Below are positions 7,633 to 24,500 of a stretch of DNA of 64,000 nt, one piece after another. The DNA is taken from NCBI GenBank assembly GCA_021372245.1, contig JAJFUV010000362.1, forward strand, positions 1 to 64,000. Direction: 5' to 3'. The notes under the pieces are model-generated. The model ran no database searches. It saw only the letters and a program-made list of their open reading frames with translations, and was not told the origin of the DNA. Origin of the DNA: Terriglobales bacterium (GTDB lineage Bacteria > Acidobacteriota > Terriglobia > Bryobacterales > Bryobacteraceae). Both the position numbers and the translations under genes were made by a program. The number at the start of each line of letters is the position of its first letter. Position 1 is the stretch's first letter.

Positions 7633-8144
7633 GTACAGCCACATCTCGCATCAGAGTCCTGAGCATTGACCCCACCAGCCGGGGCTTCGGTTTTGCAGTG
7701 TTTGAGGGCGTCGATCGCCTGATCGACTGGGGAGTAGTACACGCGAAGGCGGGCCATCGTCAGTGCCTCAACCGAATCGAGAGACTTCTAGAGCGATATA
7801 AACCATGTACCTTGGTGATCGAGGAGACCAAACGCGGTTCGCGTCGCGGACCGAGGGCACAGCAGCTGTTGTTCTCAACCAAAAGGTTGGCCGCTAAGAA
7901 ACACGTGAAGTTGAGAGCTATACTGCACAGGCGGTTCCAGCAGCTCTTTTCGCAGACTGGCGCGACCACGAAACACCGGATTGCCCAAGTGATCGCTGAA
8001 CGGTTCCCCGAATTGGCACTGCATCTACCACCGCCACGGAAGCCGTGGAAAAGCGAGGCGGAGATGATGGCGGTGTTTGACGCAGTTGCGTTTGCTCTGA
8101 CCATTCTGGAACCGACGAGTAGCCAAGGACCGAAGTCGTTGTAG
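7629..8144 (+). CDS. RuvC-like RNase H-fold nuclease (Holliday-junction resolvase type)
   Basis: 171 aa. Strand 1 holds the first catalytic Asp in VLSIDPTSRGFGFAVF, the second acidic residue is in LVIEETKRG, and the third lies in the KSEAEMMAVFDAVAFAL helix: the D...E...D order of the RuvC superfamily. The length is close to RuvC. A basic stretch (RRGPRAQQL) may contact DNA. The gene is coupled by a 4-bp overlap to the XRE regulator and lies downstream of the ATPase, so it probably resolves junctions or cuts DNA during replication or excision of the element. Substrate not known. Confidence 0.7.
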   Translation: MSTATSRIRVLSIDPTSRGFGFAVFEGVDRLIDWGVVHAKAGHRQCLNRIERLLERYKPCTLVIEETKRGSRRGPRAQQLLFSTKRLAAKKHVKLRAILHRRFQQLFSQTGATTKHRIAQVIAERFPELALHLPPPRKPWKSEAEMMAVFDAVAFALTILEPTSSQGPKSL

Positions 8145-8324
8145 CCATCGGCCGGCAATCTACATCAGAAAAAGCCATCAACAGGAAGGACCCTTGCTTG
8201 ACACCTGCCTTTTCAGGGCTACGATCGGCCATTGGCTTCTGATTGATTCTAAAACCCTTAACCATCACTCTCGCCTCTGAACCGCCTCATTTGTTGGAAT
8301 GAAACGGAATGAACTCGGAATGGC

Positions 8325-9356
8325 CTATCGGACCATCCTGTCTACAATCTTCTTTTGCGACTCCGGAACAAACTGCCGATAGACATCCAGTGTTGCGCTT
8401 GCCTTCGCGTGCCGCATCAAAGCCTGGGCATCTTTCACGTCCTCTCCGGCGAGCTTCAGCCACGTCGCGAAGGACCGTCGCAGCACCTGCCAGTTGACCC
8501 AACCGATGCCCAACTTTCGCGCCGCTGGCTTGATGTGCCGCACCAGGACGTTGTTATCCCTCACCGGCATACCCTTCACCGGCGACTGGAATACCAAATC
8601 TTCCGGACCAGCGGACTTCAGCGCCGGATACTTACGGGTCCCTCTGCCGGCTTTGACCATCACCATCAAGGTCTTCAACCGTTGTATGCATTCGATCACC
8701 GTGCGATTGATGGGCAGTTTGGCGTTACTCGCCTCGCTCTTCGATGGCCCCCAATCCCCACGGCAGTAACGCTCCTCAATGGTTATAGACTCATCGTGCA
8801 CATTTTTTTACCGTAAACCAACCAACTCGCTCACCCGCAAGCCCGTGTGCACGGCCACGTAAACCATCGTGGCGTATGGCTCCGAGATCATCTCCGCAAG
8901 TAGCGAGAACTGCGGTCGCGTAATCCAGGGCTTCATCTTCTTGCCCTTTCCCCGATGAGGCAAGGAAACGCCCTCAACCGGATTCTTGACCAACAAGCCG
9001 TACCGGACGGCAGATCGCAGCACGCTGGACAAGACATCTCGCACCTTGTCCATCGATTCGTATTCCAACTTCGTCTGCCGGAATCCTGAGATGTAGCGGT
9101 CCACCGTCAACACGCTGATGTCCCGCAAACACAAGCTTCCGAACTGCGGGATCAGATAATTGTTGAGGACGTTAGCGGCGAAAATGAAAACCAGCGAGTT
9201 CTTCAGGAGTGTAAGCGCCTGGGTGTCGGATACATCACGTTTACAAAGGCGGGGGACTACGACACCTTTGACACCGTGGTTGACGCCTGACCTAGGGACC
9301 CCAATCCCTATGCGGTGGACAGATTCATCCGGAAACAAATCAGTCAGCACAATCAA
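8325..9356 (-). pseudogene. Tyrosine recombinase/integrase interrupted by an in-frame stop
   Basis: Two minus-strand frames in the same phase are separated only by a TAA at 8808-8810. Reading through gives HTGLRVSELVGLR-stop-KNVHDESITIEERY, where relatives have Trp at the stop. The N-terminal half has the SAM-like core-binding domain and the first catalytic Arg (TGLRVSEL). The C-terminal half has WQVLRRSFATWL (box II Arg), LMRHAKASATLDVY and the nucleophile Tyr. The first 40 or so residues upstream of the core domain look scrambled. No functional single polypeptide is expected, although split halves could in principle be translated (GTG at 8801). Confidence 0.8.
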
Positions 9357-9651
9357 GACGAACTTCGGGAACTGCTGCGTTGAAGACAGCAGGGGGTGTT
9401 GGCTTCAGAAGTGCGTTCCGGCTGAGACTTGATCTGACACGGTTTATAGTTACCCAACACGAACATACGATGCACCTTTGCCTCCGGTCGGGCCCGGGCC
9501 ACCGGGAGCCAGATTAAAGGTTCCGGGTGAGGGATTACCAACCTGCAGAGTGGGAGAATTTCATCTGGCGTAGCCCGGGGAGCGAAGTCCTACCCTTCTG
9601 AATCCCACGCGCCGCCCGGCGAGTTCGAGCAAGGAACCAATCAACTACAGA
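9357..9651. other. Gap with no gene recognised
   Basis: Between the integrase pseudogene and the HipA-like gene. It probably contains the decayed 5' end of the integrase, but no frame here shows a recognisable motif. Confidence 0.5.
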
Positions 9652-10662
9652 TTAAGCTGAGCAACTGAATGCAGAAGACGTACGGCTACCCGCCACGACC
9701 TGATCGCAACGGCCTGGCAGGAAGTGGGCATGCTGGCATCTGAAATGTGACCCGGTGGGAACTGGTAGAGTCCATTCTTCGAAGGGGCTGTAAGCAGATG
9801 CTCGGAGAGCCTCGATCATGCGTGGCACAGATTTGCGTCTCTCCAGGAGTCGCCCAAGGAGGATTTCGAATGGTCGTGTTTCAATCTCCCATTCTGTAGG
9901 CACGAGGCGAACTAGAGACATGACGGCATGTTCGTCAACCGAGTCGATTGCCTCAAACCAAGGTTCAAAATCAGCCCAGGAACGAACAGCGCGATAGACA
10001 GCCTTGTCTCTATAAAGCCCGTACAGAGGAGCGTCCTCGAACGCCCAATGTTGACCACCGAAGGTATAGCCGTGGTCGATCATGCGGGCAAGGATACCCA
10101 TGTGACGAGGATGCGCAGACTGAATGCCTAGGTTAGTGCGGATATTCCCGCGAAAGAACACGGCCTGCCTGACATCAATATTCCCCAACCACTTGTCCAC
10201 TACAAGCATTCCGATGAAGTGGGACAAGTTGACGACCTGATCCAGCACCGTGGTAGGCAATAGGTCATAGACCGCGATTTTATTCGGATCCCCGGGATAA
10301 AGGGACCCAAAGTGATAGCCAGCGGGGACGGACTCCACCCTGTGGTGCAGCTCAATGCGAACGCCAGAATTACGTGAAAGCAGTTCGTCATCAACAAACA
10401 CAAGACTGAAATCGGCGGCAGAAAGGCCAAGGTGCCGTAGCAGAGCGGAAGCAGCCAACTCGTTCACTAGTGTGCGCTTCCCCTGCGGATTATTGAGGAA
10501 CTTCACCACGTGGTAGCACCCGTCGGAGGCGAACATGAGCTGCGACTGAGCACCGCCACGCATTCTTCTAAGTGCATTCACAGCCCTGATCCGAGGGCAG
10601 TGGTCAAGATTCACAAGGCCAGGAGGGTCAATCGGCCGCTTAAGTCGACGTTCCTTGTACAT
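9652..10662 (-). CDS. HipA_2-type protein kinase
   Basis: 336 aa, start supported by an AGGAG seven bases upstream of ATG 10662. The N-terminal motif RMRGGAQSQLMFASDGCYHV followed by VVKFLNNPQGKR is the glycine-rich/Lys segment of HipA-like kinases. VVDKWLGNIDVRQ and LARMIDHGYTFGG supply the catalytic and metal-binding Asp-containing loops. The C-terminal 25 residues are low-complexity and probably drifted. HipA relatives phosphorylate translation factors or other proteins; the target of this family is unknown. It lies downstream of a sigma-70-like gene on the same strand, 125 bases apart, with no HipB-like antitoxin visible. Confidence 0.75.
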   Translation of the reverse strand: MYKERRLKRPIDPPGLVNLDHCPRIRAVNALRRMRGGAQSQLMFASDGCYHVVKFLNNPQGKRTLVNELAASALLRHLGLSAADFSLVFVDDELLSRNSGVRIELHHRVESVPAGYHFGSLYPGDPNKIAVYDLLPTTVLDQVVNLSHFIGMLVVDKWLGNIDVRQAVFFRGNIRTNLGIQSAHPRHMGILARMIDHGYTFGGQHWAFEDAPLYGLYRDKAVYRAVRSWADFEPWFEAIDSVDEHAVMSLVRLVPTEWEIETRPFEILLGRLLERRKSVPRMIEALRASAYSPFEEWTLPVPTGSHFRCQHAHFLPGRCDQVVAGSRTSSAFSCSA

Positions 10663-10787
10663 TGGCGAACTCCTAGATGCACACGCACTGTCAGTGCTTC
10701 AAGCAAAGCGCGCAGTTGTTACCGTATCGGGCGAGCCACTCCTATGGAGTTATCTGCACTGGCTCCGCCAGACGTCGAAGATTATGA

Positions 10788-11423
10788 TTAGCTGATACCT
10801 ATACGGCGACACGCGATTCTGGCCATCGCGCGCCATTTCCGACAACGAAACTGACTTTCGCTAATACCCATCTCCGCACAGATCTGGACGGGATCTTGTT
10901 CCTCCAGACAGAACCGGGTGAGGATCTCGCGATCAGTGGGTTTCAATCGTGCGAGCCGTCGAAGTGCGACCTCTCGTTCTTCACCGGTTAGCATGTCTGA
11001 TTCCGGGCTCGGGGCTGAATCTGGCAACTCCATTTCTGCATCTGAAAGCGGAACCAGCCTTTGACGAGCAGTTATCCGACCCTTGATATCAGAGTAGATC
11101 ATACGCCTCACGACAACGGCGATGAAGCCAGGAAGGCAGTCGGGTTGGCGCACTCGGTCATGCAATATCGCATCAAGCACAGCAACGTATGCGTCGTGCA
11201 GATGGTCTTCCGACTCAGCCCAGAGACCTTGCCTTCGCAGGTGCCCCATGGATAGGTTTGCGATCAAAGTGTATAACATTTCCATGGCGCCCGGTACCTG
11301 ACTCCGAACACCCTCAAAGATGACCGATGGCGGTGCGCCATCCCAAGAAGACCCACACGACGGGGCAAGATCGGGCTCGCAACTGACGTCAAGAGAATCC
11401 AATGATAAGGCACTACCAGACAT
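10788..11423 (-). CDS. RNA polymerase sigma-70-family factor (ECF-like)
   Basis: 211 aa from ATG 11423, which has a good GGAGGAAG site; the frame continues upstream to 11612 without support. Residues about 60-130 (MEMLYTLIANLSMGHLRRQGLWAE... DAYVAVLDAIL ... GFIAVVVRRMIYSDIKGR) resemble region 2. Residues 165-211 (LARLKPTDREILTRFCLEEQ ... EMGISESQFRCRKWRAM) resemble region 4 with its HTH. The linker is acidic. It would direct RNA polymerase to a small set of promoters. The zf-HC2-like protein at 12612 could be a partner anti-sigma factor, but it is 1.2 kb away on the other strand. Confidence 0.75.
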   Translation of the reverse strand: MSGSALSLDSLDVSCEPDLAPSCGSSWDGAPPSVIFEGVRSQVPGAMEMLYTLIANLSMGHLRRQGLWAESEDHLHDAYVAVLDAILHDRVRQPDCLPGFIAVVVRRMIYSDIKGRITARQRLVPLSDAEMELPDSAPSPESDMLTGEEREVALRRLARLKPTDREILTRFCLEEQDPVQICAEMGISESQFRCRKWRAMARIACRRIGIS

Positions 11424-11870
11424 ATGAAACACTTCCTCCGCAGCAAACGCGGTTGTTATGACAAGTCCTTCCGTGTCGCTGCCAACGGCACGTTTCATCG
11501 CAAAGCAACACCGGAAATTGGATAGTAAAGATTTCGCGGTCGCCATCACGGTCGATTTCAAGGACATTTGCGGGTAGCAGCGCCAACGCTTCTGTCCAAT
11601 ATTGCGACGCATTCATTTAGAGGAAAAGCATCGTGACTCAGACATGATTGCAGTCGTAAACACGGACAACAACACGACGCTGTCCATACAGCCTAGAGAC
11701 CACCAATGGCAAACTAGGGGGAGCGGACTGTCCCTCTCTCTTCACGTACCGCGAGCTGGCACAGTCTTTCAGCGGTCATCCAGAACGCCAACGCTCCTCC
11801 CTTCTACCGCAAACAAGCGCAGACGGACGGGCGCACAGGTGCCGCCGGACTATCCTGTGAACTTCTCAGT
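11424..11870. other. Gap with no gene recognised
   Basis: About 450 bases upstream of the sigma factor gene. It should contain its promoter. Short frames are present on both strands but none has a motif or a good ribosome site. Confidence 0.4.
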
Positions 11871-12248
11871 TCACCCAACGCGGCGAGAATACTCGATGCG
11901 ATCTTGCTCCGACAGCACACGGAACGCACAACGCTTAAGTTCAAGACCTAGCAGTCGCTTTACTTCAAGACTGGGCACGTCACGACCAATATTTGGGGCC
12001 CAATGAACAACCAAGATCGCCTGGAGGACGTACCTGTCTATTACGCGTCTATCAAGCGCAGTGGGTCTCAAATAGCGACGAAACGTTTTGCGCCCATATG
12101 GTGCCAACTCACTCCACAGTCGAGTGAGGTGCGGAATGGGGTCACCGTTGGCGCGGTGGACTGAACCCGTGGACGTGCCAACTGTGCGATCCAAGTTCAA
12201 GGAACACCCATTCTCCTGAACAGCCTGACAAAGGGAATAATCTTCCAC
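11871..12248 (-). CDS. Hypothetical protein, unrecognised
   Basis: 125 aa, basic, with a helical C-terminal half (DVPSLEVKRLLGLELKRCAFRV). No family recognised and no clear ribosome site. The only support is an open frame with a believable mix of hydrophobic and charged residues. It could be a random frame or part of a decayed gene. Confidence 0.3.
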   Translation of the reverse strand: MEDYSLCQAVQENGCSLNLDRTVGTSTGSVHRANGDPIPHLTRLWSELAPYGRKTFRRYLRPTALDRRVIDRYVLQAILVVHWAPNIGRDVPSLEVKRLLGLELKRCAFRVLSEQDRIEYSRRVG

Positions 12249-12340
12249 GATTTAATAGCTCCGTCATGCTTTACAGACATAACAGGTTATCGTATACTAA
12301 GCGGTTTAATCAATATGGATTAAAAAAATAATCCGAGACA

Positions 12341-12496
12341 GTGCTCGAAGTGATCCCAGAACCTGGACGCAGATGTTCTTTGGTGTCGTATCGGGATGAG
12401 GGACTACATCGGATCCGGGCGGCGATGGCGGACAAGATACTTGACAGCAACTTCGACGCGATCGTTGCTGACGTTGGCCACGGCTTAATTGATTGA
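12341..12496 (+). CDS. Possible small protein (51 aa) or gene remnant
   Basis: From GTG 12341 the frame reads a protein-like sequence (VSYRDEGLHRIRAAMADKIL, then SNFDAIVADVGHGLID) that ends at TGA 12496. The alternating hydrophobic pattern looks like helix-strand-helix, but no family is recognised and no good ribosome site is visible. It lies in the otherwise empty gap 12249-12611. Confidence 0.3.
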   Translation: MLEVIPEPGRRCSLVSYRDEGLHRIRAAMADKILDSNFDAIVADVGHGLID

Positions 12497-12611
12497 GGGC
12501 GTTTGAGGTGGCCGCTCGTGAGGGAGGTGTTTGGCCGTATTCTTGGTTTGCAGTTGCCGAGGGGAAAGCGCGAACACCAATGGCTGTCGTGTCACCACGG
12601 TGCTAATCCGC

Positions 12612-12797
12612 ATGAACTGGACACATATCTGTGATGAGGATTTGGAGCGATACTACTTGGGCCAGGTGCAAGACGAGAAAGAACTGGCTCCGCTGGAGGA
12701 GCACATCCTTGCCTGCCCCTCGTGTGCGAGGCGGGCTGAAGATGTCCAAGATTACGTGGACACTATACGCATCGTTCTTATGAGTATCTCAGACTGA
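12612..12797 (+). CDS. Small zf-HC2-like (anti-sigma type) zinc-finger protein
   Basis: 61 aa from ATG 12612, which starts MNWTHICDEDLERYYLGQV. The motif H-I-L-A-C-P-S-C (HxxxCxxC) with an upstream Cys and acidic residues matches the zinc-binding anti-sigma fold of zf-HC2 proteins. No transmembrane helix follows, so it would be cytosolic. Similar short proteins are common in Acidobacteriota islands. A regulatory role towards the sigma-70-like protein at 10788-11423 is possible but inferred. Confidence 0.55.
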   Translation: MNWTHICDEDLERYYLGQVQDEKELAPLEEHILACPSCARRAEDVQDYVDTIRIVLMSISD

Positions 12798-13454
12798 TTT
12801 CAGGCGAGACGCCGAGCGCCTCTGCGAGCGAATTGTTGAGGTCCGAAGTAGCTTCGGATCAAGGTAAACCTCAATGATGGCGATAGAAAGATAGCACGAA
12901 ATAGACTTCGTAGGGTGCCGCGGGGTGTAGAATAGACGGTATCCATGATGTGAGAAAGGGCATCTCGGTCGAACTTTTTGGCACATAATGGGTGATGTTG
13001 TTAGGGCGCGGCAGGTGGGCGTCCCAAGTGAGTGGTTCTGTAGTGCGTGTGAATCGCTTATGAAGGTTCGTCAAAAGGTGGGACGAGAACGACAGGGTCC
13101 TTGTCGCATCGGTCGACCACCCTTCTTGCCTAGCGCCACTGGGGTCTGTTGTATTGCCTTGGTGGCTATGGGCAGATGGCAGTCTATGTTCGGCGGCTCT
13201 GACACTTGACGAGACCACCGTAAGTTTCAGCGGAGATGGCAACAGGTTCATGAACAACGCCAATCGATGGAACATGGGAGCCAGGGAGTTCACCACCAAC
13301 CCAACTCATCTTGCCGCTTGCCTAGCTGGGCCTTGGATGGCCAATTCGACTCCCGGTTCTGGCAACGAGTGCAGCAAGGTGAGGGCGACGGTAGCAAGCT
13401 CGGTCTATTTCAATGAGGTCATCACACCATCCCAAGCCAAGGATATGGTATAGC
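12798..13454. other. Gap with no gene recognised
   Basis: About 650 bases. The open frames here (for example 13154-13453 plus) give Trp/Cys-rich or low-information translations with no motif. I see no RNA gene or repeat. Confidence 0.5.
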
Positions 13455-13880
13455 ATGGAACGCCGCTCAGAAGTGCGCCTCGACGTTAATTATCCGGCCC
13501 GAGTGACCACGCTGGGGCCACACGCCATTCATTGCGCTGTCAATGTCCGCAATTTTTCCAGCCGGGGAATGAGGCTCTGGCTTCCGCAGACCGTCACTGC
13601 AGGCACAGGGATACGTGTTGACATTGACAACACCATGTATCTGGGGGAAGTGTGCTATTGCTCGGCCGAGGACAGCGGGTACTCCGTGGGAGTGATGGTT
13701 GAGCACATGTTAGGCGCGTTGAATGAGTTGGACCAACTGAACCGAAGCCTGTTCGGGGAGAGCGGAAATGGTCGCGAAGCTTCGGCGCCGGCTGTCGACC
13801 TACCGCCAACGTTGGAACACCGCGAAGCAGGGATACGAACAAGAGCAGGACCCACAGAAGAAGAATCACGATTCGACTAG
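13455..13880 (+). CDS. PilZ-domain protein
   Basis: 141 aa from ATG 13455, with AAGGA about ten bases upstream. It starts ERRSEVRLDVNYPARV, matching the RxxxR part of PilZ, followed by a beta barrel (NVRNFSSRGMRLWLP, where D/N-x-S-x-x-G is the second c-di-GMP motif, and GEVCYCSAEDSGYSVGV). It may bind cyclic di-GMP. The C-terminal 50 residues are Glu/Arg/Pro-rich and probably disordered. No partner gene is evident nearby. Confidence 0.75.
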   Translation: MERRSEVRLDVNYPARVTTLGPHAIHCAVNVRNFSSRGMRLWLPQTVTAGTGIRVDIDNTMYLGEVCYCSAEDSGYSVGVMVEHMLGALNELDQLNRSLFGESGNGREASAPAVDLPPTLEHREAGIRTRAGPTEEESRFD

Positions 13881-14253
13881 CCGTCCTTCCCTGCCGCAAC
13901 TCGGACTGGAGAATCCCGAGAAGACTTAGTTTGGCAAGTGGAGCTTTGCCGGGGGTACAGGGTCGTTTCCTTCTATTGAGCAAGCGCTCCCGAGATGCAG
14001 TGCCGGTGGCGTTGAACGATGGTCACGCACCTTGTTGGACTTAATAAACCTTGGAGGTCGGATCGCCCATGCCTTGAGGCGTCCGATCAGTGATTCGAGA
14101 CCATCGGATACTTTCAAAGCGTACTTGGCTGTCTCACAGCTCACGCCTTGCAAGGCGGTCCCGAGGTCGGAGGTAGAAAAAGGTCGTCCTCGATCTGCAG
14201 AAGCGAAACGGCAAACGTGCCGTAAGCCCGTGCACTAGTTGTAGATATAGTCC
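13881..14253. other. Gap with no gene recognised
   Basis: About 370 bases between the PilZ gene and the promoter of the conjugation operon. No coding frame, hairpin or repeat that I can support. Confidence 0.5.
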
Positions 14254-14283
14254 TTGACGTGGTACCAGGCGTTGGGGTACAAA
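14254..14283 (+). promoter_or_regulatory. Candidate sigma-70 promoter of the peptide/E2-E1/JAB operon
   Basis: TTGACG at 14254-14259 and TACAAA at 14278-14283 are separated by 18 bases. They lie about 85 bases upstream of the first gene of the operon. The match to the consensus is decent but unproven. Confidence 0.4.
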
Positions 14284-14366
14284 AGAAGAGAATAAAAAGA
14301 GAATATCCACAAACGAATCGACCCGGCGCGATCAGCAGCAAGGGATTTGTCGTCAGAGAGGGAAAA

Positions 14367-14504
14367 ATGATAAACACCATGGCCAAAGATGACCTGAGGG
14401 AACACCCACCGCATCCACCACATCCTCCGCACCCGCCACATCCACCGCATCCGCCTGGGCCACCGGACCCACCCAAGCCGCCCAAGGATCGCCCAGTGGG
14501 TTGA
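14367..14504 (+). CDS. Tiny His-Pro-Pro repeat peptide ending in Gly, first gene of an E2-E1/JAB operon
   Basis: 45 aa from ATG 14367 (purine-rich AGAGGGAAAA just upstream; ATG 14379 is an alternative). Residues 1-12 are polar (MINTMAKDDLRE); residues 13-30 are six perfect His-Pro-Pro repeats; residues 31-45 are GPPDPPKPPKDRPVG. It cannot form a beta-grasp fold and is expected to be an extended polyproline-type tail. Its stop codon overlaps the TTG start of the E2-E1 gene (TTGA), a strong sign that it is translated and coupled. The C-terminal Val-Gly resembles the small C-terminal residues that E1-like enzymes adenylate. It could be a conjugated modifier, a substrate or a tether. The function is not known to me. 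Confidence 0.7.
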   Translation: MINTMAKDDLREHPPHPPHPPHPPHPPHPPGPPDPPKPPKDRPVG

Positions 14505-16174
14505 CGCGGTTGGAACCTTGGTACAAGCGGTTACCTGAACGCCTCAACTACGAGCTCGAAGAGCTCCGTAGAGCTGGCATTGCCTTCGCACAGGACCAGG
14601 AAGCGCTGACGTGCGGAAAAATCCGTTTGACTGTCAATACAGCGTTCGACGGACAAGACTTGGCTCTCGTCGTCGAGTTCCCGGATTTTTACCCGTACTT
14701 CCGTTTCGAAGTCGCCGCGCCATCGCTCGATCTGCCGCGCCACCAACACCCCGTGAGTAAGTACCTCTGCCTGATTGGCCGCGCTACGCGCAACTGGAAG
14801 CCGAGCGACACCCTCGCAGCATTCATCGCGCAGCGCGTCCCGGCAACCGTTGCAGCGGCAAGCGGCGACCCTAGCGTTTCTGAGGAGCCTCAGGGCGAAC
14901 CGGCGACCGACTACTTCCGCTACGAAGCGAACAGCATCGTCCTCGTCGATACTGACTGTCGCGTGCCAGCCGGAATAGGTCGTGGACAACTGCTCTTGGG
15001 ACTTGAACAGGAAGATCTCACCAAAGCTCCACTCCGAGGGGCTGTTCTGCAAGTCCTGAATGGCGACGGCGAAACCTTATACAGCGCAGATCCTCGATTG
15101 GAGGCGCTCTACCAACATCGCTGGAAGATCCCTTGGTTTCGCCTGGCCGCGCCCCCACCCTGCGGTGACGCGAAAGAGGCGATGGCGGCGTTGCATGCTG
15201 CGTTTCCAAGTACGACGAACGCGTGGACGAAATACAAGGACAGCAAATCCAGTATTATCGGTGTCCTCTGTCCCGAAGAAGTCCAGTTCGGCACGGTGTC
15301 GGACGCGTGGGTCTTCGTCGTCCAAGTCCAAGTCGGCAAACGAAGCATCGGACCGTACTTTGCGCGAGCTGGCAGAGCAGGAATCGTGGACTTGGCATCC
15401 CGCATCCCCGAACTGCACGCTCTACGAGACAAGAAGATTGGCATCGTCGGGCTCGGGTGCGTCGGGGCCCCCAGCGCCTTGCACCTCGCACGTGCCGGCG
15501 TCGGCGAACTCCGGCTCATCGACCACGACTACATCGACCCTGGCACCGTCGTCCGGTGGCCCTTCGGTTTCCGCACCGCCGGGTGGCAGAAGGTGACCGT
15601 CGTTAAGGACTTCATCACACACCACTATCCATTCACGAGCGTCAAGGCTTGGGATCATCGGATCGGCGACCCCACCCTCGATGACGCGCGCGCCATGACC
15701 GAGTTCTTCGACGGGCTAGACCTGGTCTACGACGCGAGCACTGAGGAGGGCATCAACCACCTCCTCTCCGACTTGGCATGGGAGCGACGCATCACGTACG
15801 TCGTCATCTCAACAACGACCGGCGCTTGGGGCGGACGCGTCGTCCGCATCAAACCAGGCAGTACGCAGGGATGCTGGCAGTGCATGCTCCACGCAACGGA
15901 AGACAACCAATTGCCCACCCCACCAAGCAGCGGGGAGGGCATTCAGCCGATGGGCTGCGCCAACCCCACGTACGCAGCTGCAGGCTTCGACACGGAAGAG
16001 GTCGCACTCATGGGCGTACGCGCGGCTACAACTGCGCTGGCAACAACGTACCCGAACATCCCAGGAGACGTGGGCATCCTCGTCTTCCGCCACAATGATC
16101 CGGTAATTGTGTCACCACAGTGGCAATGGCACACACTCGCACGACACCCCCGGTGTCAACACACCCATACATGA
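14501..16174 (+). CDS. E2-E1 fusion (UBC-like domain + ThiF adenylation domain, Cap2-like)
   Basis: 557 aa from TTG 14501. Residues about 10-115 form an E2/UBC-like domain: FPDFYPYFRFEV, then HQHP and the likely catalytic Cys90 in KYLCLIG. Residues about 300-557 form a ThiF/E1 domain: nucleotide-binding GLGCVG (317-322) with acidic residues in LIDHDYIDP, a Zn-like C458-x2-C461, and GCANPTYAAAGFD, in which Cys486 is the likely E1 thioester Cys. E2-E1 fusions of this kind (Cap2 in type II CBASS, and relatives in Bil/Bub-type operons) adenylate a C-terminal carboxyl and pass it to a target. No CD-NTase or ubiquitin-like gene is adjacent; the upstream partner is the His-Pro-Pro peptide, the downstream one a JAB peptidase. 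Cytosolic. Confidence 0.85.
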   Translation: MTRLEPWYKRLPERLNYELEELRRAGIAFAQDQEALTCGKIRLTVNTAFDGQDLALVVEFPDFYPYFRFEVAAPSLDLPRHQHPVSKYLCLIGRATRNWKPSDTLAAFIAQRVPATVAAASGDPSVSEEPQGEPATDYFRYEANSIVLVDTDCRVPAGIGRGQLLLGLEQEDLTKAPLRGAVLQVLNGDGETLYSADPRLEALYQHRWKIPWFRLAAPPPCGDAKEAMAALHAAFPSTTNAWTKYKDSKSSIIGVLCPEEVQFGTVSDAWVFVVQVQVGKRSIGPYFARAGRAGIVDLASRIPELHALRDKKIGIVGLGCVGAPSALHLARAGVGELRLIDHDYIDPGTVVRWPFGFRTAGWQKVTVVKDFITHHYPFTSVKAWDHRIGDPTLDDARAMTEFFDGLDLVYDASTEEGINHLLSDLAWERRITYVVISTTTGAWGGRVVRIKPGSTQGCWQCMLHATEDNQLPTPPSSGEGIQPMGCANPTYAAAGFDTEEVALMGVRAATTALATTYPNIPGDVGILVFRHNDPVIVSPQWQWHTLARHPRCQHTHT

Positions 16175-16641
16175 CAGCATGGGTGGCCGAATCCGTGCTG
16201 CAGACGATGAGGAACGAAGCCCATCGACGTTTCCCCGTCGAGTCCGGCGGCGTCCTCATCGGCTACTGGGCCAAACAACAGGTCATCATCGTCGCGGCAA
16301 CCGCGCCCGGACCAGACGCGCATCACACGAGTGCAAGATACGTCCCGGACCAAGCACACGACGAACAACAAGTCGCGCAGGCCTACAACGCATCCAGACG
16401 ACGGTACATCTACTTGGGCGACTGGCACACGCATCCGAACCAAGACCCGTACCTCAGTGAGGACGACTGCCGCACCCTCGCACACATCGCCGCGCATGGG
16501 CCAGCACGTGCAACCGTCCCAATCATGATCGTCCTCGGCGGCGGCCCCAGCGACTGGTACGCCAAGGTATGGCGTTACCGCCACGGACGCTCGCGCCCAA
16601 TGCGGCTACGACTGTACGAGAAAGCCGGAGAGCCTTGGTAG
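16171..16641 (+). CDS. JAB/JAMM deconjugating peptidase (Cap3-like)
   Basis: 156 aa from ATG 16171, which overlaps the E2-E1 stop (ATGA); the open frame extends upstream to 16120. The JAMM zinc site is complete: Glu24 in VESGGVLIGYW, H86-x-H88 in GDWHTHPNQDPYLSEDD, then Ser96 and Asp99. Such metallopeptidases cut isopeptide or peptide bonds after a C-terminal Gly or Ala of ubiquitin-like proteins and, in Cap3, of CD-NTases. The expected role is to process or reverse the conjugation made by the neighbouring E2-E1 protein. The next gene is on the opposite strand and ends three bases later. Confidence 0.88.
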   Translation: MTAWVAESVLQTMRNEAHRRFPVESGGVLIGYWAKQQVIIVAATAPGPDAHHTSARYVPDQAHDEQQVAQAYNASRRRYIYLGDWHTHPNQDPYLSEDDCRTLAHIAAHGPARATVPIMIVLGGGPSDWYAKVWRYRHGRSRPMRLRLYEKAGEPW

Positions 16642-16643
16642 CC

Positions 16644-17051
16644 CTATGAACTGCAAATGGAGTCAAGGACGTGTCGCTTCCTTTCACCGCGTTCCCGCCG
16701 GGCAAGCGTGCTTGGGTCAACGCCCAGGCGTTTCGCCATTTCTTTTTGCGAGACGCCCTGAATCTTTCGAGCTTGTACCAGCTGGCCAGCCGGTGTTCGA
16801 GGTTCAGGAAGGGGGTCGTGGCCGAGGAATCCGATAATGGCCGGCCAGTGTCGGAAGGCGGGGGTGGTTGCGTTGTTTTCCCAGTTCCAAATGGATGATT
16901 CCACGACGCCGAGCCTTTGGGCGACATCGCTTTGGAGCAGCTGAAGATCAAGTCTCCGCTTCCGAATGTGGTCGCCCAGTGTTTTCAGTGCCTTGGGATA
17001 GGCATGGGAAAGAGGCCTTTGAGTCCGCAGGTGTACTTGGCAAAAAGGCAA
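16644..17051 (-). CDS. Tandem XRE helix-turn-helix protein
   Basis: Up to 135 aa. It contains two HTH units: TLGDHIRKRRLDLQLLQSDV (with RLGVVESSIWNWENN) and LVQARKIQGVSQKEMAKRLGVDPSTLARRERGE. This is a widespread small bacterial family that normally starts close to YPKxPKTLGDH. The only available start here is TTG 17051, which lies at the junction with the yifB fragment, so the first 18 or so residues are probably not native. The C-terminus after the second HTH (KRHVLDSICSS) also departs from the family. It is convergent with the JAB gene. It may be partly decayed. Confidence 0.65.
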   Translation of the reverse strand: MPFCQVHLRTQRPLSHAYPKALKTLGDHIRKRRLDLQLLQSDVAQRLGVVESSIWNWENNATTPAFRHWPAIIGFLGHDPLPEPRTPAGQLVQARKIQGVSQKEMAKRLGVDPSTLARRERGERKRHVLDSICSS

Positions 17052-17054
17052 CGC

Positions 17055-17524
17055 GGGGGTGCCGGTGCGGGTTTTACGGCGACGCCACGCACGAGTGCCG
17101 CTGCACGGGAGGGGAGATCCAACGGTACCTGGGCAAGATCAGCGGACCGTTGCTTGACCGCATCGACCTGCACATCGAGGTGCCGGCCGTCCCCTACGCC
17201 GAGCTGCGCGGCAAGGACGGCGGCGACACCAGCGCTGAGATTCGCGCGCGTGTGGAGGCGGCGCGCCACATCCAGCAGCGGCGTGGCTTTTACAATGCGC
17301 AGATTCCCCACGCCCCGCTGCGGAAGTTGTGCGCCCTGGACGATGCCGGCGAGCGCACCCTGGAACTGGCCGTCCGGCGCATGGGCCTGAGCGCCCGGGC
17401 CCACGACCGCATCCTTAAGGTAGCCCGCACCATCGCGGACCTGGGCAGCACCGAAAACGTGAGCGCGAAGCACGTGGCCGAGGCTGTGCAGTACCGCAGC
17501 CTCGACCGGACCTACATGATTTGA
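17055..17524 (+). pseudogene. yifB: Truncated yifB/comM (Mg-chelatase-like AAA+), 3' part only
   Basis: Translation from about 17058 reads CRCGFYGDATHECRCTGGEI, then QRYLGKISGPLLDRIDLHIEV, LRKLCALDDAGERTLELAVR and AHDRILKVARTIADLG. This is the conserved C-terminal third of YifB/ComM, a hexameric helicase for branch migration in transformation. The full-length protein is about 500 aa with an N-terminal Lon-like domain and a Walker A motif; both are missing, and homology starts abruptly at the zinc-binding loop (NPCPCG in relatives). The upstream sequence belongs to another gene on the other strand. The breakpoint marks a boundary of the accessory block. Confidence 0.85.
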
Positions 17525-17611
17525 TGCAAGTCCGGTGCCTCAACAACCGAAGCCGCCGGTTTAGTGTCACCGGTGGCCGAAGCCATTCGCTGCCGGCTGC
17601 CGGATCGCAAC

Positions 17612-18124
17612 CTACTTCTTCATCTGGTAAGCGTGCACCATCTTCGGCCTCCATTTCCGCGCCAGGGCCTGAGCTTCGGTGATTTGCTCGGGAGTCATCT
17701 TGCCAGCGGCCTCGTCACGCTTATCGGAGAATTTCTTTTGATCGGTTCTCCCAGCGCGAGAAGCCGCGAGGCTAAGCCACATGTGCGCTTGCACATAGTC
17801 CTTTGCAACCCCGTTGCCGTTGAAATACATGGAGCCGAGGTTGTACTGCGCGCGGGCGTGGCCCCTCTGGGCGGCCTCGCGGAACCAGCGGGCTGCTTCG
17901 GCGTCGTCTTGCGCTACCCCTACGCCCTGGGCGTACATGACACCGAGGTTGTACTGCGCGAGTTCGTGATCCCTGGTTGCCAGCCATTTCCACTCCCTCA
18001 CCGCCGTGGCATAGTCACCCCTGTTGTAAGCGTCCTGCGCCCGCATTGCCGCCGGCTGTGCACTCGAGGGCAGAGCTAACACGCCGCAAACCGATACGCC
18101 GCAAATCCAAACCTGCCAGTTCAT
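17612..18124 (-). CDS. Secreted Sel1-repeat (TPR-like) protein
   Basis: 170 aa from ATG 18124 (an in-frame start five codons earlier is possible). A signal peptide covers residues 1-24 (WICGVSVCGVLALPSSAQ). Two clear Sel1 repeats follow: AQYNLGVMYAQGVGVAQDDA with EAARWFREAA, and AQYNLGSMYFNGNGVAKDYV with QAHMWLSLAA. The C-terminus is a helix ending in Lys-Lys. Sel1 repeats mediate protein-protein contacts; expected location is the periplasm. The upstream stretch 18140-18529 (about 390 bases, divergent from the MscS gene) shows no other gene. Confidence 0.8.
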   Translation of the reverse strand: MNWQVWICGVSVCGVLALPSSAQPAAMRAQDAYNRGDYATAVREWKWLATRDHELAQYNLGVMYAQGVGVAQDDAEAARWFREAAQRGHARAQYNLGSMYFNGNGVAKDYVQAHMWLSLAASRAGRTDQKKFSDKRDEAAGKMTPEQITEAQALARKWRPKMVHAYQMKK

Positions 18125-18529
18125 GGCCAGCACCTCCATACGGACAGAGGCGCCTCCGACTTGAACGGATACCCTCGCCTGTCTATCATCGGAGCAACCT
18201 CCGTTCTTGCTGTTGATTGCAGAAGCAGGTCGAGCACGATTCTCAGCTTCGTGTTCCGGTACTTGGATACGCGCCGCGTGGACGAATCTGTTCTGCCGGA
18301 GTTGGTGGATGCTCCTGAAAAGGCCGGTTCAATCCGGACGGAGTTGGTCCGCTTCGTGTCAGCGTTTCAAGCCAGATGGTCCGCTTCTGTTTGGGCTCAC
18401 GAAGCTGAGTACCCAGGAATCCCAGTAAAGAATCCTAGGAGTATTCTACACGATGAACCTCGATAGCGAGCCGCGCGTCCACCGAGGTTCGGTTTGCGTC
18501 TGTGGCAATCGGATTACAATGAGAATCGA

Positions 18530-20431
18530 ATGCGGTTCGCTGCGTTTATCGCCGCCGTGCGGCGCCTCGGAACTGTTTGCGCCGTGCCGGCGCTGGCGGC
18601 ACTGCTTCTCGTCCAGGGCCCGGCGCTTCGAGCGCAGCGGCCACTCGAAGACCAGGATATTTTACGATACCTGAGCCAGACCATCGCCTGGTACCGGGAT
18701 GTAGCCGTCGTGGCGCAGTCTTCCTCCGATGCGAGGCAGGCAATCTTCGCCGACAGCCTGCGCCAGAGTTCCGCGGAGGCGGTCCGGCTGGCCTTCGAAT
18801 TCGCGCGCGCGCAGGCTGCGATCCCACGGGCCAGGGCTCCTGAGGCGGCGCCGCCCGGGGGCGCTCGAAGCCACACCTTGGCGCAATCGGCCGCGGCCGC
18901 GGAGCAGCGGGCGGAGCAGGCCCAGGCGCAGATCGAGCGGATCAACCAGCAATTGGAGACCTCCCCGCCACGCTTGCGCCCTCGGTTGCTGGCGTTGCGG
19001 AACGAGGTTACCAGCGAGGCTAACTTCGCCAAGGCGCGCCGGGATGCGTTGCGCAACCTCCTCGGTTTTTTGAGCGCCCCGGGCGAGGGTGGACTAGCGG
19101 CGAAGGTCAACGATCTGGAACGCACCATCCCGGAGGTGGGCAACGCCCGTCAGAAAGCCGCTTCCGCGCCCACGGCGAGTGTTCAAAGTGTTGCGCCGCA
19201 GGGCTTCAATCCGGAATCATCGGGCCTCGCCGGCCTCGCGACGGAGATCTTTTCCATCTACAGGGAGATGCGGCGGTTGGACCGCCTGGCCGAGGAGACG
19301 GACGCCCTGCGTCAGGCTGGTGAGGGACTCCGCGGGCCGCTGCGCAAGGCTTTGCGGGAGGTAATCCGCCAGGGTGACGCTACTACGCAGGCCCCGGAGT
19401 CATCCGACGTCGCGGCGTTGAAGGCACAGCAGAGTGAGATCGACGCACTGCTGGCACAATTCAAACAATTGTCGGCATCGACTGCACCGTTGAGCGAGCA
19501 ATCCACGCAGATCAACACCACTCGCGGCCGCATACTCGAATGGCGCGGCATGCTGGCCGAAAACCGTGACAGCACCTTGCGTTACCTTCTGCTGCGCGCC
19601 GGAATGCTGGCGGTGGCGCTCGGGCTCATCTTCGGACTCGCGGAACTGTGGCGCCATGCCACCATGCGCTATGTCCAGGACCTGCGGCGCCGCCGGCAGG
19701 TTCTGCTGTTCCGGCGGATTGTGGTCAGTTGCGCCGTCGTGCTGTTTATCGTCCTCAGTTTTGTCACCGAATTCGGGTCGCTGGCGACGTTCGCCGGGTT
19801 CTCGGCTGCGGGACTTGCGGTTGCCATGCAAAGCGTGATCCTGTCCATGGTCGCCTATTTCTTCCTCGTAGGGCGCTGGGGCGTTCGCATCGGGGACCGC
19901 GTGACAGTCTCAGGAGTGACGGGCGAAGTGGTGGATATCGGCCTGTTCCGGCTTTACCTGTTGGAGTTAGGCGGATCGAGCCCCACCCTCCACCCCACCG
20001 GGCGCATCGTGGTGTTCCCGAATTCGGTGTTCTTCCAGTCCTCGGCCCTGTTCAAGCAGGCTCCCGGGATCGATTACGCCTGGCGCGCCATCACCGTGCA
20101 GCTCCCCGCAGCGGCGGATTCCGCTGTGGTTGAACGGCGCCTTCTCGCCGCCGTCGAATCCGTCTATGAGGAATATCGCGAGGTTATAGAGCGGCAGCAC
20201 GGCACCGCGCAGTCACGGCTGAGCGTGACGACCGACGTGCCGCGCCCGGAGAGCCGCCTGCGGTTTGTCGACTCAGACCAGGAGATCACGATCCGTTATC
20301 CGGTCGAGATTCGCAGGGCTGCGGAGATCGATGGCCGTATAACGCGGGAAGTGGTCGCGCAGCTCGAAAAGGATCCGAAGCCTATGTTCGCGAGTGGCGG
20401 CGGGTACAAGATCCAGGTGACAGCCGGATAG
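18530..20431 (+). CDS. MscS-family mechanosensitive channel with long periplasmic coiled-coil domain
   Basis: 633 aa from ATG 18530 (the frame extends 12 codons upstream). Order: signal peptide (ending GPALRAQ), a long Ala/Arg/Gln-rich coiled coil (residues about 40-330), transmembrane helices near 360-380 and 405-425, then the pore helix and MscS core: GFSAAGLAVAMQSVILSMVA, then FFLVGRWGVRIGDRVTVSGV and the VFPNS loop, followed by the C-terminal alpha/beta part. Such large MscS relatives release solutes under hypo-osmotic stress. Transcription converges with the DHOD-like gene; the shared gap holds that gene's terminator. Confidence 0.85.
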   Translation: MRFAAFIAAVRRLGTVCAVPALAALLLVQGPALRAQRPLEDQDILRYLSQTIAWYRDVAVVAQSSSDARQAIFADSLRQSSAEAVRLAFEFARAQAAIPRARAPEAAPPGGARSHTLAQSAAAAEQRAEQAQAQIERINQQLETSPPRLRPRLLALRNEVTSEANFAKARRDALRNLLGFLSAPGEGGLAAKVNDLERTIPEVGNARQKAASAPTASVQSVAPQGFNPESSGLAGLATEIFSIYREMRRLDRLAEETDALRQAGEGLRGPLRKALREVIRQGDATTQAPESSDVAALKAQQSEIDALLAQFKQLSASTAPLSEQSTQINTTRGRILEWRGMLAENRDSTLRYLLLRAGMLAVALGLIFGLAELWRHATMRYVQDLRRRRQVLLFRRIVVSCAVVLFIVLSFVTEFGSLATFAGFSAAGLAVAMQSVILSMVAYFFLVGRWGVRIGDRVTVSGVTGEVVDIGLFRLYLLELGGSSPTLHPTGRIVVFPNSVFFQSSALFKQAPGIDYAWRAITVQLPAAADSAVVERRLLAAVESVYEEYREVIERQHGTAQSRLSVTTDVPRPESRLRFVDSDQEITIRYPVEIRRAAEIDGRITREVVAQLEKDPKPMFASGGGYKIQVTAG

Positions 20432-20453
20432 ATCTTGCCGCACTCGCGACACG

Positions 20454-20483
20454 AAAAAAGGGAGCAGTCCGTGGACCGCTCCC
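20454..20483 (-). terminator. Intrinsic terminator of the DHOD-like/nifJ operon
   Basis: Read on the minus strand: a GC-rich stem of about 10 bp with one mismatch (GGAGCGGTCC / GGACTGCTCC) and a 2-nt loop, followed by TTTTTT. It lies 27 bases after the stop codon of the DHOD-like gene. Confidence 0.75.
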
Positions 20484-20509
20484 CAAGAACTCATCAAAGG
20501 CGTGACTGT

Positions 20510-21517
20510 CTAGGAATTTGCTCCCACGACGTAGCTGCCGAGCACCTTCATGTAATTGGCTCGAAGGTACGCGGTGGGCTGCGCCACCGACTTCATGCTC
20601 ATGGAACCCTGCATCTGCTTGATGGATTCGTATTCGTGCTCTTCCATCCACTTCGCAAGGCCCTCGTTGAGCGTCTTGATGTGGCCGATGCCGTTCTGGA
20701 GCAGCGCTGAAGTCATCATGGCAACTTTGCCACCTGCCATCATAGACTTCAGAACGTCCTCGACGGTGTGGACGCCGCCGGTGATCGCCAGGTCGGCCTT
20801 GACGTGGCCGTACAGCGTGGCAGCGGCGTACAGCCGGAGCAGCAGTTCGCTGGACCGGCTGAGAGTGAGGTTCGGAACCACTTCGAGGGCTTCCAGGTCG
20901 TAATCCGGCTGGTAGAACCGGTTGAAGATCACCAGCGCGTCGGCGCCCGCTTTGTCCAGGCGCCCGGCGATGTTGGCGAACGAACTGAAGTACGGCCCCA
21001 GTTTGACAGCGACCGGGATGCGGACGCTGGCCTTGATGTGACTGACCAGTTCCACATAGAGGTCCTCGATATGGGAACCCACTGTTTCCGGGTTTACCGC
21101 AAGGAAGTAAATGTTAAGCTCAAGCGCGTCGGCGCCGGCTTCCTCAATCAGCTTCGCGTAGCGGATCCACCCCCCGGTGGAGACGCCGTTGAGGCTGCCG
21201 ATGACCGGAATGTCGACGGCTTCCTTCGCCTTGCGGATGTGCTCGATGTAGCCCTCGGGCCCGATCTGGAAAGTTTCCATGTCGGGGAAGTAGCTCAATG
21301 ATTCGGCGAAGCTCTCGGCCCCAGCCGAAAGGTTCCGGTCGAGGTCCTGGCTTTCCAGTGTGATCTGCTCTTCGAACAGCGAATGCAGGACCACGGCGGA
21401 GGCACCCGCATCCTCCATGCGCAGGACGTTACCGATGTCCTTGCACAGAGGGCCGGCGGAAACCACCAGCGGGTTCTTCAGTTTCAAACCGAGATAGCTA
21501 GTCGAAAGATTAGGCAT
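20510..21517 (-). CDS. Dihydroorotate dehydrogenase-like flavoprotein (PreA/PyrD family)
   Basis: 335 aa. The TIM-barrel signatures of class 1 DHOD-like proteins are present: [18 protein letters not shown] at the start, [47 protein letters not shown] and [20 protein letters not shown], the last being the FMN phosphate site. It starts seven bases inside the end of nifJ (overlap 21510-21517), so the two form one operon. In many anaerobic or facultative bacteria this protein is linked to NifJ rather than to pyrimidine genes, so a role in ferredoxin-linked electron transfer is more likely than pyrimidine synthesis. Cytosolic. Confidence 0.88.
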
Positions 21518-24500
21518 TCTTCACCTCCTGGGGGACTTCCACCGGATTCGTCCCGTTAGCGGGCATGTTGGCCCAGTGCTCGTACAACTTCCAGCGGCTG
21601 ATGACATCTTCCTGCGCTTCCTTCAGCAGGACTCTCGCCGCTTCCGGCTTGCTACGGGTCAACATCGAGTAGCGAGTCTCATTGTAAATGTACTTCTCAA
21701 GAGGCAGCGCCGGGGCCTTGGAATCAAGTTGCAGCGGGTTCTTGCCTTGCTTGATCAGATCCGGATTGAAGCGATACAGCGGCCAGTAGCCGCTCTGGAC
21801 AGCCGCCTTCTGCTGATCCAGGCCGTGGATCAGGTCGTAGCCGTGAGCGATGCAGTGGGAGTAGCAGATAAGGAGCGACGGCCCGTCGTAGGCTTCGGCT
21901 TCGAGGAATGCTTTCACCGTCTGCATGTCGCCCGAACCGAAGGCGACACGCGCCACGTAGACGCTGCCATAGGTCATCGCCATCATGCCCAGGTCCTTCT
22001 TGGGCATCGGCTTGCCGCCGGCTGCGAACTTCGCCACCGCGCCGCGCGGAGTGGCCTTGGACATCTGGCCACCGGTGTTGGAATAGACTTCCGTGTCGAG
22101 CACCAGCACGTTGACGTTGCGGCCGCTGGCGAGCACATGATCGAGTCCGCCGTAGCCGATGTCGTACGCCCAGCCGTCTCCGCCGAGGATCCACACGCTC
22201 TTTTTGACCAGCATGTCGGCCAGGGCGAGCAGGTGGCGCTCCTCGGTCGTCGAAGCACCGGCCAGCTTCTTCTTCAACTCCACGACGCGATCGCGCTGCT
22301 CGCGTAATGCAGTCTCGGTAGACTGATTGGCGTTGAGTAACTCGCCAACGAGGTTGTCGCCGATCTTCGACGAGAGCTTCGTCACGAGTTGGCGTGCGTA
22401 TGCGGTCTGCTGATCGGCCGCCAGCCGCAGGCCCATGCCGAATTCGGCGTTGTCTTCAAACAGCGAATTGGTCCAGCTAGGACCACGGCCATTGGCGTCG
22501 ACGGCATAGGGAGTCGTAGGCAGGTTGCCACCGTAAATCGACGAGCAGCCCGTCGCGTTGCACATCAGGGCGCGGTCGCCGAACAACTGCGACACCAGCT
22601 TGAGGTAGGGCGTCTCGCCGCAGCCGGCGCAAGCGCCGGAGAACTCGAACAGAGGCCGCAGCAGTTGGACGTCCTTCACTTGGTTGAAAGCCAGCACGCG
22701 ACGATCGGTGTCCTCAATGTTCTTGAAGAACTCCCAGTTGATCCGTTCGGACTCACGCAGCGGCGGCTGAGGCTCCATGTTGATGGCCTTGCGCTTAGTC
22801 TCGGTCTTGCTCTTGACCGGGCAGGCCTCAACGCAGATTCCGCATCCGGTGCAATCTTCCGGCGCGATCTGCAGGGTGTACTTCTGCTCCTTGAAATCCT
22901 TCCAACGGGCCGCGGTGCTCTTGAAGGTCGCCGGCGCCCCGTTGAGAGCGGCGGCATCGTACACTTTACCGCGGATGGTGCCGTGCGGGCAAACCAATAC
23001 GCACTTGCCGCACTGGATGCAGAGCTTCTCGTCCCACACCGGGATTTCGAGGGCGATGTTGCGGCGCTCCCACTGCGCGGTGGCGGTGGGGAAGGTGCCA
23101 TCCGGCGGCATGGCGCTGACGGGCAGATCGTCGCCTTCGCCGGCGCAAATCCGGGCCGTTACCTTCTGCACGAACTCGGGCGCTTCCTCAGGCACCGGAC
23201 GCCGCAAATCGAACGTGCTGGTGACCTGGGTGGGAACCTTTACTTCGTGCAGGTGGTCGAGAGCCGCGTCGACGGCGGCGTAGTTCTTCTGTACCACGGC
23301 TTCGCCGCGCTTGCCGTACGTCTTCTTGATGGCTTTCTTGATCTGCTCGATGGCTTCCTCGCGCGGAAGCACGCCGCTGATGGCGAAGAAGCAGGTCTGC
23401 ATGATCGTGTTGATGCGCACGCCCATGCCGGTGGCATCGGCGACCTTGTAGGCGTCGATCACGTAAAACTTCAGCTTCTTGTCGATCATCTGCTTCTGCA
23501 CGGTTCTGGGCAGGTGATCCCAGACCTCTTCGGGAGCGTAAAGGCTATTGAGAAGGAAGACGGCGCCCGGCAGTGCGTCCTTCAGGATGTTTAGGCGCTC
23601 CAGGAAGGTGAACTGGTGGCAGGCGATGAAGTTGGCCTTGTTGATGTAGTAGCTCGAACGGATATGCTTGGGGCCGAAGCGCAGATGCGAAACCGTGACG
23701 GCGCCGGCCTTCTTCGAGTCGTAGACGAAATAGCCTTGCGCCGCGAGGTCGGTTTCTTCACCGATGATCTTAATGGAGTTCTTGTTGGCGCCGACCGTTC
23801 CGTCCGAACCCAGGCCATAGAACAGCCCGCGGAAAGTCTTGGGATCTTCGGTGCAGAAGTCCGGATCGAAAGCCAGGCTGGTGTGGGTCACATCGTCGTT
23901 GATGCCGACGGTGAAGTGGTTCTTCGGCGCGCTCTTGGCGGCTTCGTCGAACACGGCCTTGACCTGCGCGGACGAGAAGTCCTTGGAGGAGAGGCCATAG
24001 CGGCCGCCGATCACGCGAGGCATGGACTTGAACGGAAGCTTGCCGGCGGCGCTGCCTTCCATCAAAGAAGTGACCACGTCTATGTACAGGGGCTCGCCCG
24101 TCGCGCCGGGTTCTTTGCAGCGATCCAGCACGGCAAGGGTCTTCACGGAAGCAGGCAGGGCGGCGAGGAAGTGCTCGACCGAGAACGGCCGGTACAGATG
24201 GACCTTCAACACGCCGACCTTTTCGCCACGCTCGGTGAGGTACTCGACGGTCTCGTGGGCGATGTCCGCGCCCGAGCCCATCATGATGATTACGCGCTCG
24301 GCGTCCGGCGTGCCCACGTAGTCGAACAACTTGTACTGGCGGCCGACGATGCTGGCGAACCGGTCCATGACGCTCTGCACGATATCGGGGCAGGCCAGGA
24401 ACCACGGGTTGCAGGCTTCGCGCGCCTGGAAGAAAACGTCGGGATTTTGCGCCGTACCGCGCATGATCGGGCGGTCGGGGTTCAGCGCCCGCTGGCGGTG

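Follow-up and report, generated by a model that had tools for sequence, protein, structure and literature searches.

A proline-rich peptide gene chained to E2-E1 and JAB genes in a Terriglobales contig: a candidate cassette for reversible peptide conjugation

A stretch of 64,000 nucleotides (nt) from a Terriglobales bacterium (assembly GCA_021372245.1, contig JAJFUV010000362.1, positions 1 to 64,000), hereafter the window, carries on its plus strand three genes that are chained by 4-nt stop-start overlaps: an open reading frame (ORF) of 45 codons, a gene of 557 codons encoding an E2-E1 fusion, and a JAB gene. The trio itself is solid, as is the conservation of the encoded peptide. Our sequence comparisons suggest that the three genes form a reversible peptide-conjugation cassette, in which the peptide would be attached to proteins and removed again by the JAB enzyme, and we give this reading a probability of about 0.74.

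The peptide gene and its linkage to the E2-E1 gene

A proline-rich ORF ending in glycine was found immediately upstream of the E2-E1 gene at 41 of 41 loci bearing the E2 domain. These comprised 28 of the 31 loci obtained by scanning one genome of each species with a profile, 11 plasmid loci, the window and one relative from its phylum. The ORF was required to have at least 20 amino acids (aa), an end between -250 and +60 nt from the E2-E1 start, at least 20% proline in the last 30 residues and a final glycine. Such an ORF was found at none of three E1-only remnants (loci L035, L037 and L041), whose E2 part was unmatched by tblastn, and in 1 of 14 control operons. The sole control match was the tail ...KDTPQG of a CD-NTase of the cyclic oligonucleotide-based antiphage signalling system (CBASS), itself the expected substrate of Cap2. 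When chance was assessed with a criterion of at least 25% proline in the last 30 residues and a final glycine, 44 of the 11,821 six-frame ORFs of at least 20 aa at the loci qualified, and 33 of the 44 were the ORF at the operon start. By its position, its conservation and its glycine terminus, the peptide is the likely modifier, and it is likely to be the substrate of the E1.

The ORF had no family match in Pfam, NCBIfam or PADLOC. In the last 14 codons, compared over 48 pairs of related loci, the proportions of synonymous (pS) and nonsynonymous (pN) differences were 0.404 and 0.084, an in-frame ratio of 0.21, while the shifted frames gave pN/pS of 3.64 and 2.24; the pairs are mutually dependent, yet the contrast between the frames is large. 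On this evidence the ORF evolves as a protein-coding gene. When the available E2-E1 proteins were grouped at 70% identity into 22 clusters, the last residue of the peptide was G in 22 of 22, with V at -2 in 21 and R at -4 in 19, an ending VGQQ being read without its QQ. The family peptides, the product of L012 apart, had 30–70 aa (mostly 41–60), with about 35% proline and then glycine and histidine as the commonest residues; the L040 peptide had no ATG start, and its length was counted from the preceding stop. The AlphaFold2 model of the window's peptide, made with 20 family peptides, was an extended chain with no secondary structure (predicted local distance difference test score, pLDDT, 81; predicted template modelling score, pTM, 0.23), so that no beta-grasp fold is expected for it.

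Some members of the family showed features of their own. The Hymenobacter peptide of L005 and L011 ends in VGQQ and is possibly a precursor that requires trimming by the JAB enzyme. The N-terminal half of the Bradyrhizobium peptide (L015:5788-5964) is very rich in His and Asp and is possibly metal-binding. The plasmid pNGR234a harbors two distinct copies of the cassette (L008 and L064), with the tail types ..PPKHVG and ..PSHRPVG.

L012 comes from a metagenome-assembled genome of Hymenobacter, and its E2-E1 protein is 50% identical in the best segment to that of Hymenobacter psychrotolerans. Here the place of the peptide is taken by a protein of 162 aa (L012:1602-2087). It consists of DUF1508 of the YegP type (1e-21, 2 stretches) followed by a tail ending PVNPPRVPGDRPVG. 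The presence of an RPVG-type tail on a DUF1508 protein indicates that the tail moves as a unit. Excerpts of PMC13373217 place YegP-like genes next to capK/capS.

The 4-nt overlap and the very short length of the ORF would also suit an upstream leader that merely couples the translation of E2-E1, the true modifier being encoded elsewhere in the genome. However, coupling has no need of an RPVG end, the C-terminal residues are kept across phyla under strong purifying selection, and the tail relocates onto the DUF1508 protein. In addition, a DNA pattern for PPxxRPVG followed by a stop gave one match in the window's genome, which was the peptide gene, and one match was likewise obtained with the reversed-pattern control; no other protein with a PPxxRPVG tail was found in the window's own genome. 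We regard the leader explanation as quite improbable.

The product of the peptide gene is MINTMAKDDLREHPPHPPHPPHPPHPPHPPGPPDPPKPPKDRPVG, read from ATG 14367, with an alternative in-frame ATG at 14379. Its TGA stop (14502-14504) sits within the TTGA start of the E2-E1 gene. The JAB gene shares the 4 nt ATGA with the stop of the E2-E1 gene; the ORF listing begins at GTG 16120, and the start was refined to ATG 16171 on account of this overlap, the resulting 156 aa being in agreement with the homologues. The sequence-only reading of the window had described a complete E2-E1 plus JAB module with its catalytic residues present and with no ubiquitin-like or modifier gene. The Pfam matches and the intact catalytic residues bear out the complete module, but the 45-codon ORF at 14367-14504 had been overlooked, and this ORF is modifier-like with no ubiquitin fold. 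The features are collected in Table 1.

Table 1. Coordinates of the cassette in the window
Feature	Position	Strand	Basis
Proposed modifier gene, 45-aa Pro/His-rich peptide	14367..14504	+	ORF; HPP repeats; C-terminal PPKDRPVG
E2-wing-E1 fusion, 557 aa, TTG start	14501..16174	+	Pfam ThiF; AlphaFold2 model; Cap2 best PDB match
Codon of E2 catalytic Cys90	14768..14770	+	Cys in 28/28 family rows
Codon of predicted E1 catalytic Cys486, motif GC-x-x-PT	15956..15958	+	Cys in 28/28 family rows
JAB/JAMM isopeptidase, 156 aa from ATG 16171	16171..16641	+	Prok-JAB 1.8e-14; invariant E, HxH, S, D

The conjugation enzymes and their relation to CBASS

The E2-E1 protein matched Pfam ThiF at 1.3e-22 and Prok-E2_B at 7.2e-5, the latter with 23.2 bits, slightly below the cut-off of 25.4 bits. 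The residue Cys90 of the E2 and, in the E1, Cys486, Cys458/461, Cys552, Asp411 and the GxGxxG loop were identical in all 28 family rows, and His81 of the E2 in 27 of 27 rows of a second alignment. The JAB proteins of the family and CBASS Cap3 all share the Glu, HxH, Ser and Asp residues. The residues that had been recognised from the sequence are therefore invariant in the E2, E1 and JAB proteins of relatives, and the loss of catalytic residues in relatives, named beforehand as a sign against the proposal of a distinct system, was not seen. The JAB protein reached 55.5 bits with the NCBIfam Cap3 equivalog against a cut-off of 200; judged by sequence, it is Cap3-like and not a Cap3 equivalog.

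The AlphaFold2 model of the E2-E1 protein had a pLDDT of 79.9 and a pTM of 0.73, and its best PDB match was Cap2 (7to3_A, E 7.4e-23, 610 alignment columns); a structural comparison with Cap2 had been proposed with the first reading, and the fold is indeed Cap2-like. The whole-model superposition on Cap2 was poor (root-mean-square deviation 30), the placement of the domains being different or uncertain. The E1 part alone matched UBA5, MoeB and ThiF at Z 25–27 and MccB structures at Z about 24. The VIA-align rows mostly span residues 290–557 and thus inform on the E1 part.

The protein encoded directly upstream of E2-E1 was also compared among the control operons. Of 13 such proteins, 11 ended in G or A and 2 in G plus one residue (GFGR and MGGQ); the fourteenth control, L004, has another gene order and was left out of this score. 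The 13 comprised 8 CD-NTases, 3 proteins of the metallo-beta-lactamase (MBL) type from operons resembling 6A-MBL, and 2 unclassified proteins. The MBL-type proteins ended ..DSRYA, ..KPMGGQ and ..DKPMG (L043, L065 and L066); L043 was called MBL-type by motif only, with no Pfam match at 1e-3. These endings suggest that the MBL protein of the 6A-MBL-like operons may itself be the conjugated species. In CBASS, according to excerpts of PMC10097602, the cyclase is bound to Cap2 as a thioester through its C-terminal Gly and is conjugated mainly to lysines, and its last residue is Gly or Ala in operons having Cap2 and Cap3. An excerpt of PMC11153139 describes conjugation of a Bacillus cereus cyclase to PspA and its scarless release by Cap3. 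By analogy with these operons, the peptide is, in position and ending, in the place of a Cap2 substrate.

In the E1 tree of 41 rows, 27 of the 28 family rows formed one clade with support 99/98 and a stem of 0.91 changes per column, and the Clostridiaceae row L026 fell outside it. When three long-branch controls were dropped, the 27-row clade had support 87/97, and all 28 rows stood on one side of a weak branch (59/64). The tree omits the identical or nearly identical L005, L019 and L025, the frameshifted L036, L039 and L040, the three remnants, L009 (split), L047 (cut by a contig end) and L060–L064 (fetched later). The CBASS Cap2 rows were not monophyletic in the E1 trees, their sampling being thin with 9 rows in the tree. 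The family may have descended from some Cap2 lineage.

The sequence-only reading had noted the absence of a CD-NTase, and phmmer searches of window positions 6001-26000 with five CD-NTases as queries indeed returned none. No SAVED-type effector was found there by phmmer either, other effector classes not having been searched for. Among the other family loci searched, L014 alone had a CD-NTase gene, which lies some 2 kb past the JAB gene and in the opposite orientation; this gene (L014:10283-11800, minus strand) encodes a SMODS-type CD-NTase with an AGS_C sensor.

The cassette could in principle be a degenerate type II CBASS, in which Cap2 and Cap3 remained after the loss of the CD-NTase and the effector, as would fit the Cap2-like architecture, the best structural match to Cap2 and the match of the PADLOC E1-E2 models (98.2 bits). 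Such decay is very improbable in view of the own 27-row E1 clade, the own conserved upstream gene, active sites that are intact in divergent lineages, and the lack of a CD-NTase at the tested loci apart from L014. The earlier guess of a distinct conjugation system, and not CBASS minus its cyclase, agrees with the separate E1 clade, which has no firm placement within CBASS Cap2, and with the occurrence of the same three genes across several phyla.

Distribution and neighbourhood of the cassette

The distribution of the cassette is sporadic but wide. According to the record titles, its hosts belong to Pseudomonadota, Bacteroidota, Actinomycetota, Bacillota, Planctomycetota, KSB1 and Nomurabacteria. 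In the phylum of the window it was found in 2 of 297 genomes, and in 2 of 396 in a second scan, the window's own genome being counted in both; the E2-E1 gene of the sole phylum relative is severed by a contig end. In the plasmid collection, tblastn matched 12 records over 80% or more of the query. Loci were taken from nine of these (all but H7, H9 and H11), from H13 and from a second site in pNGR234a. Several copies of the cassette lie on conjugative plasmids. Scans of viral contigs gave no relative, and tblastn of a phage collection gave three weak partial E1 matches only.

An all-against-all BLAST of the ORFs surrounding 30 loci showed that only the E2-E1 gene (30 loci) and the JAB gene (29 loci) recur across lineages, and the one locus lacking JAB is truncated by a contig end. 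The further recurring ORFs were antisense shadows and a RES-Xre pair, which was confined to related loci and occurred in two related groups of them.

This comparison bears on two other explanations of the trio. One is a RiPP-like (ribosomally synthesized and post-translationally modified peptide) pathway, in which the E1-like enzyme would activate the C-terminus of the peptide, the JAB protein would be a maturation protease and the peptide would be the end product. The high rank of MccB among the E1-domain matches (Z about 24) and a short-peptide substrate in the same operon speak for it, but no transporter or immunity gene recurs at the 30 loci, all intact members keep an E2 with His81 and Cys90 that such a path does not need, and the same tail occurs on the folded-looking DUF1508 protein; we consider this explanation unlikely. 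The other is a sulfur carrier, the E1 forming a thiocarboxylate at the end of the peptide for a biosynthetic path and the JAB protein removing a C-terminal cap. The E1 domain has strong matches to ThiF and MoeB, and JAB and E1 pairs are known in such paths (excerpts of PMC1779556). It is scarcely probable here, since no biosynthetic gene family recurs nearby and the fused E2 with its catalytic Cys would be left unexplained.

Regulatory genes were seen at some relatives. At L016, L022, L023 and L032, an XRE regulator and an M78/IrrE-type peptidase lie divergently upstream of the peptide gene, and L047 has an M78-type match. These pairs resemble CapH+CapP, of which CapP is presumably a peptidase of the M78/IrrE type. 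CapH+CapP are described in excerpts of PMC13373217 as DNA-damage-responsive controllers of immune operons. L026 adjoins HsdM/HsdS of type I restriction, and L016 adjoins an OLD-like nuclease. Metal-resistance genes lie near L005, L006 and L010; we make no claim from them, because plasmids often carry such genes.

In the window itself, the Pfam-based annotation confirmed the flanking PilZ and XRE genes that had been named from the sequence. The XRE protein (16644-17051, minus strand) has two helix-turn-helix stretches, seemingly an internal duplication. On the minus strand, at 8325-9356 and 9652-10662, phage-integrase-like pieces spread across two ORFs lie near the module, together with a HipA-like kinase. 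To the right of the module stands the C-terminal part of a broken yifB, a comM-type Mg-chelatase gene (17048-17524, plus strand), while the N-terminal part is on another contig, at G000:C256 15336-16427 (minus strand). Both parts end in one codon region (NP|C-x-CG), which points to the insertion of an island into yifB or to a break in the assembly. The surroundings had earlier been called a defence-like block; the contexts of some relatives are suggestive of this, but the window's own cassette has recombinases, the HipA-like kinase and the broken yifB as its neighbours.

Proposed mechanism and comparison with known systems

For the peptide-conjugation cassette, we infer a course of adenylation, thioester formation, conjugation and deconjugation. 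The first gene would give an extended Pro/His-rich peptide of about 45 residues with the conserved tail ...PPxxRPVG. The E1 half would adenylate its terminal glycine and capture the peptide on Cys486, and the E2 half would receive it on Cys90 and join it to an amine, with the side chains of lysines in target proteins as the most likely acceptors. The JAB enzyme would cleave the isopeptide bond and may also trim precursors such as the Hymenobacter VGQQ ending. The cassette would thus act as Cap2 and Cap3 do in type II CBASS, with a stand-alone peptide conjugated instead of the cyclase. For a role in phage defence or in a stress response, we regard the chances as evenly balanced.

Several points weigh against peptide conjugation. 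No effector is linked to the cassette. The E1-like MccB adenylates a short peptide for an antibiotic, and adenylation alone is no proof of protein tagging. The peptide is of low complexity, and its good conservation is confined to the last ~14 residues. The divergent Clostridiaceae locus L026 has a peptide of 30 aa ending in YG, and its placement relative to the clade is not firm. As for the linkage count, L005 and L011, which are identical and end in VGQQ, were admitted by an exception made for them, and the E2-E1 starts of several loci were placed by hand near the peptide stop.

A more general rule may lie behind these operons. Recognition by Cap2-like E2-E1 enzymes may involve no more than a short, disordered tail at the C-terminus, and the conjugated body may be swappable, being a cyclase in CBASS, a metallo-beta-lactamase fold in 6A-MBL, YegP/DUF1508 in L012, or none. 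The version with no body would be a new class of modifier of about 45 aa, polyproline-like and often His-rich, reversibly attached as a stress or anti-phage signal and perhaps metal-binding. We find this rule fairly probable. If it is true, a tail-only modifier in a widespread operon would mean that the chemistry needs just a C-terminal peptide, and the gene adjacent to any Cap2-like enzyme would predict its substrate. It would explain the conjugated species of "orphan" E2-E1-JAB operons and offer a minimal, easily rebuilt system for probing bacterial conjugation. The small tag would leave a distinctive mark in mass spectrometry.

Rhizobium NGR234 is entered in rows 6b and 6c of the E2-E1/JAB operon types 6a–6e set out by Iyer et al. 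in 2006 (PMC1779556), where types 6d and 6e have beta-grasp proteins and no proline-rich peptide is mentioned in the sections examined. No description of such a peptide modifier was found in the open-licence literature, subscription papers, preprints and supplements being outside the scope. The 6A-MBL operons (row 6a of Iyer 2006; NCBIfam NF058523) resemble the cassette in their E2-E1 and JAB modules, but the JAB of the cassette is a separate overlapping ORF and is not fused to E2-E1, and its scores with the NF058523 model, 66.4 and 76.3 bits, fall below the cut-off of 320 bits.

Ubiquitin-style systems of E1, E2 and protease are as a rule bound to a modifier with a beta-grasp fold, and CBASS is the exception that tags with a cyclase. 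The modifiers of the Bub systems are beta-grasp ubiquitin-like proteins. The modifier of Bil is described as one too in an excerpt of PMC11354881. Bil (PMC11354881) and Bub (PMC13373217 and PDB titles) are like the cassette in having E1, E2 and JAB enzymes that act on a small modifier, as far as those excerpts and titles go. The cassette differs from both in that its peptide has no fold and its E2 is fused to E1, not encoded by a separate gene. No ubiquitin-like gene was found among the window proteins scanned, which covered some of the window's ORFs, no whole-genome search for one having been made.

Pup of actinobacteria is a disordered protein modifier like the peptide here, but Pup ends in GGQ or GGE, and its ligase PafA is unrelated to an E1-E2 pair. 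The product of MccB is a peptide-nucleotide antibiotic. According to structure titles, the MccA/MccB system of microcin C7 shares with the cassette an E1-like enzyme that acts on a short genome-encoded peptide, but the microcin system has no E2 or JAB. Type II CBASS likewise has a JAB gene behind an E2-wing-E1 fusion, and an upstream gene whose product ends in Gly or Ala. The cassette is distinguished from it by its separate E1 clade, by having no effector, and by an upstream gene that encodes a Pro/His-rich peptide of about 45 aa, not a cyclase.

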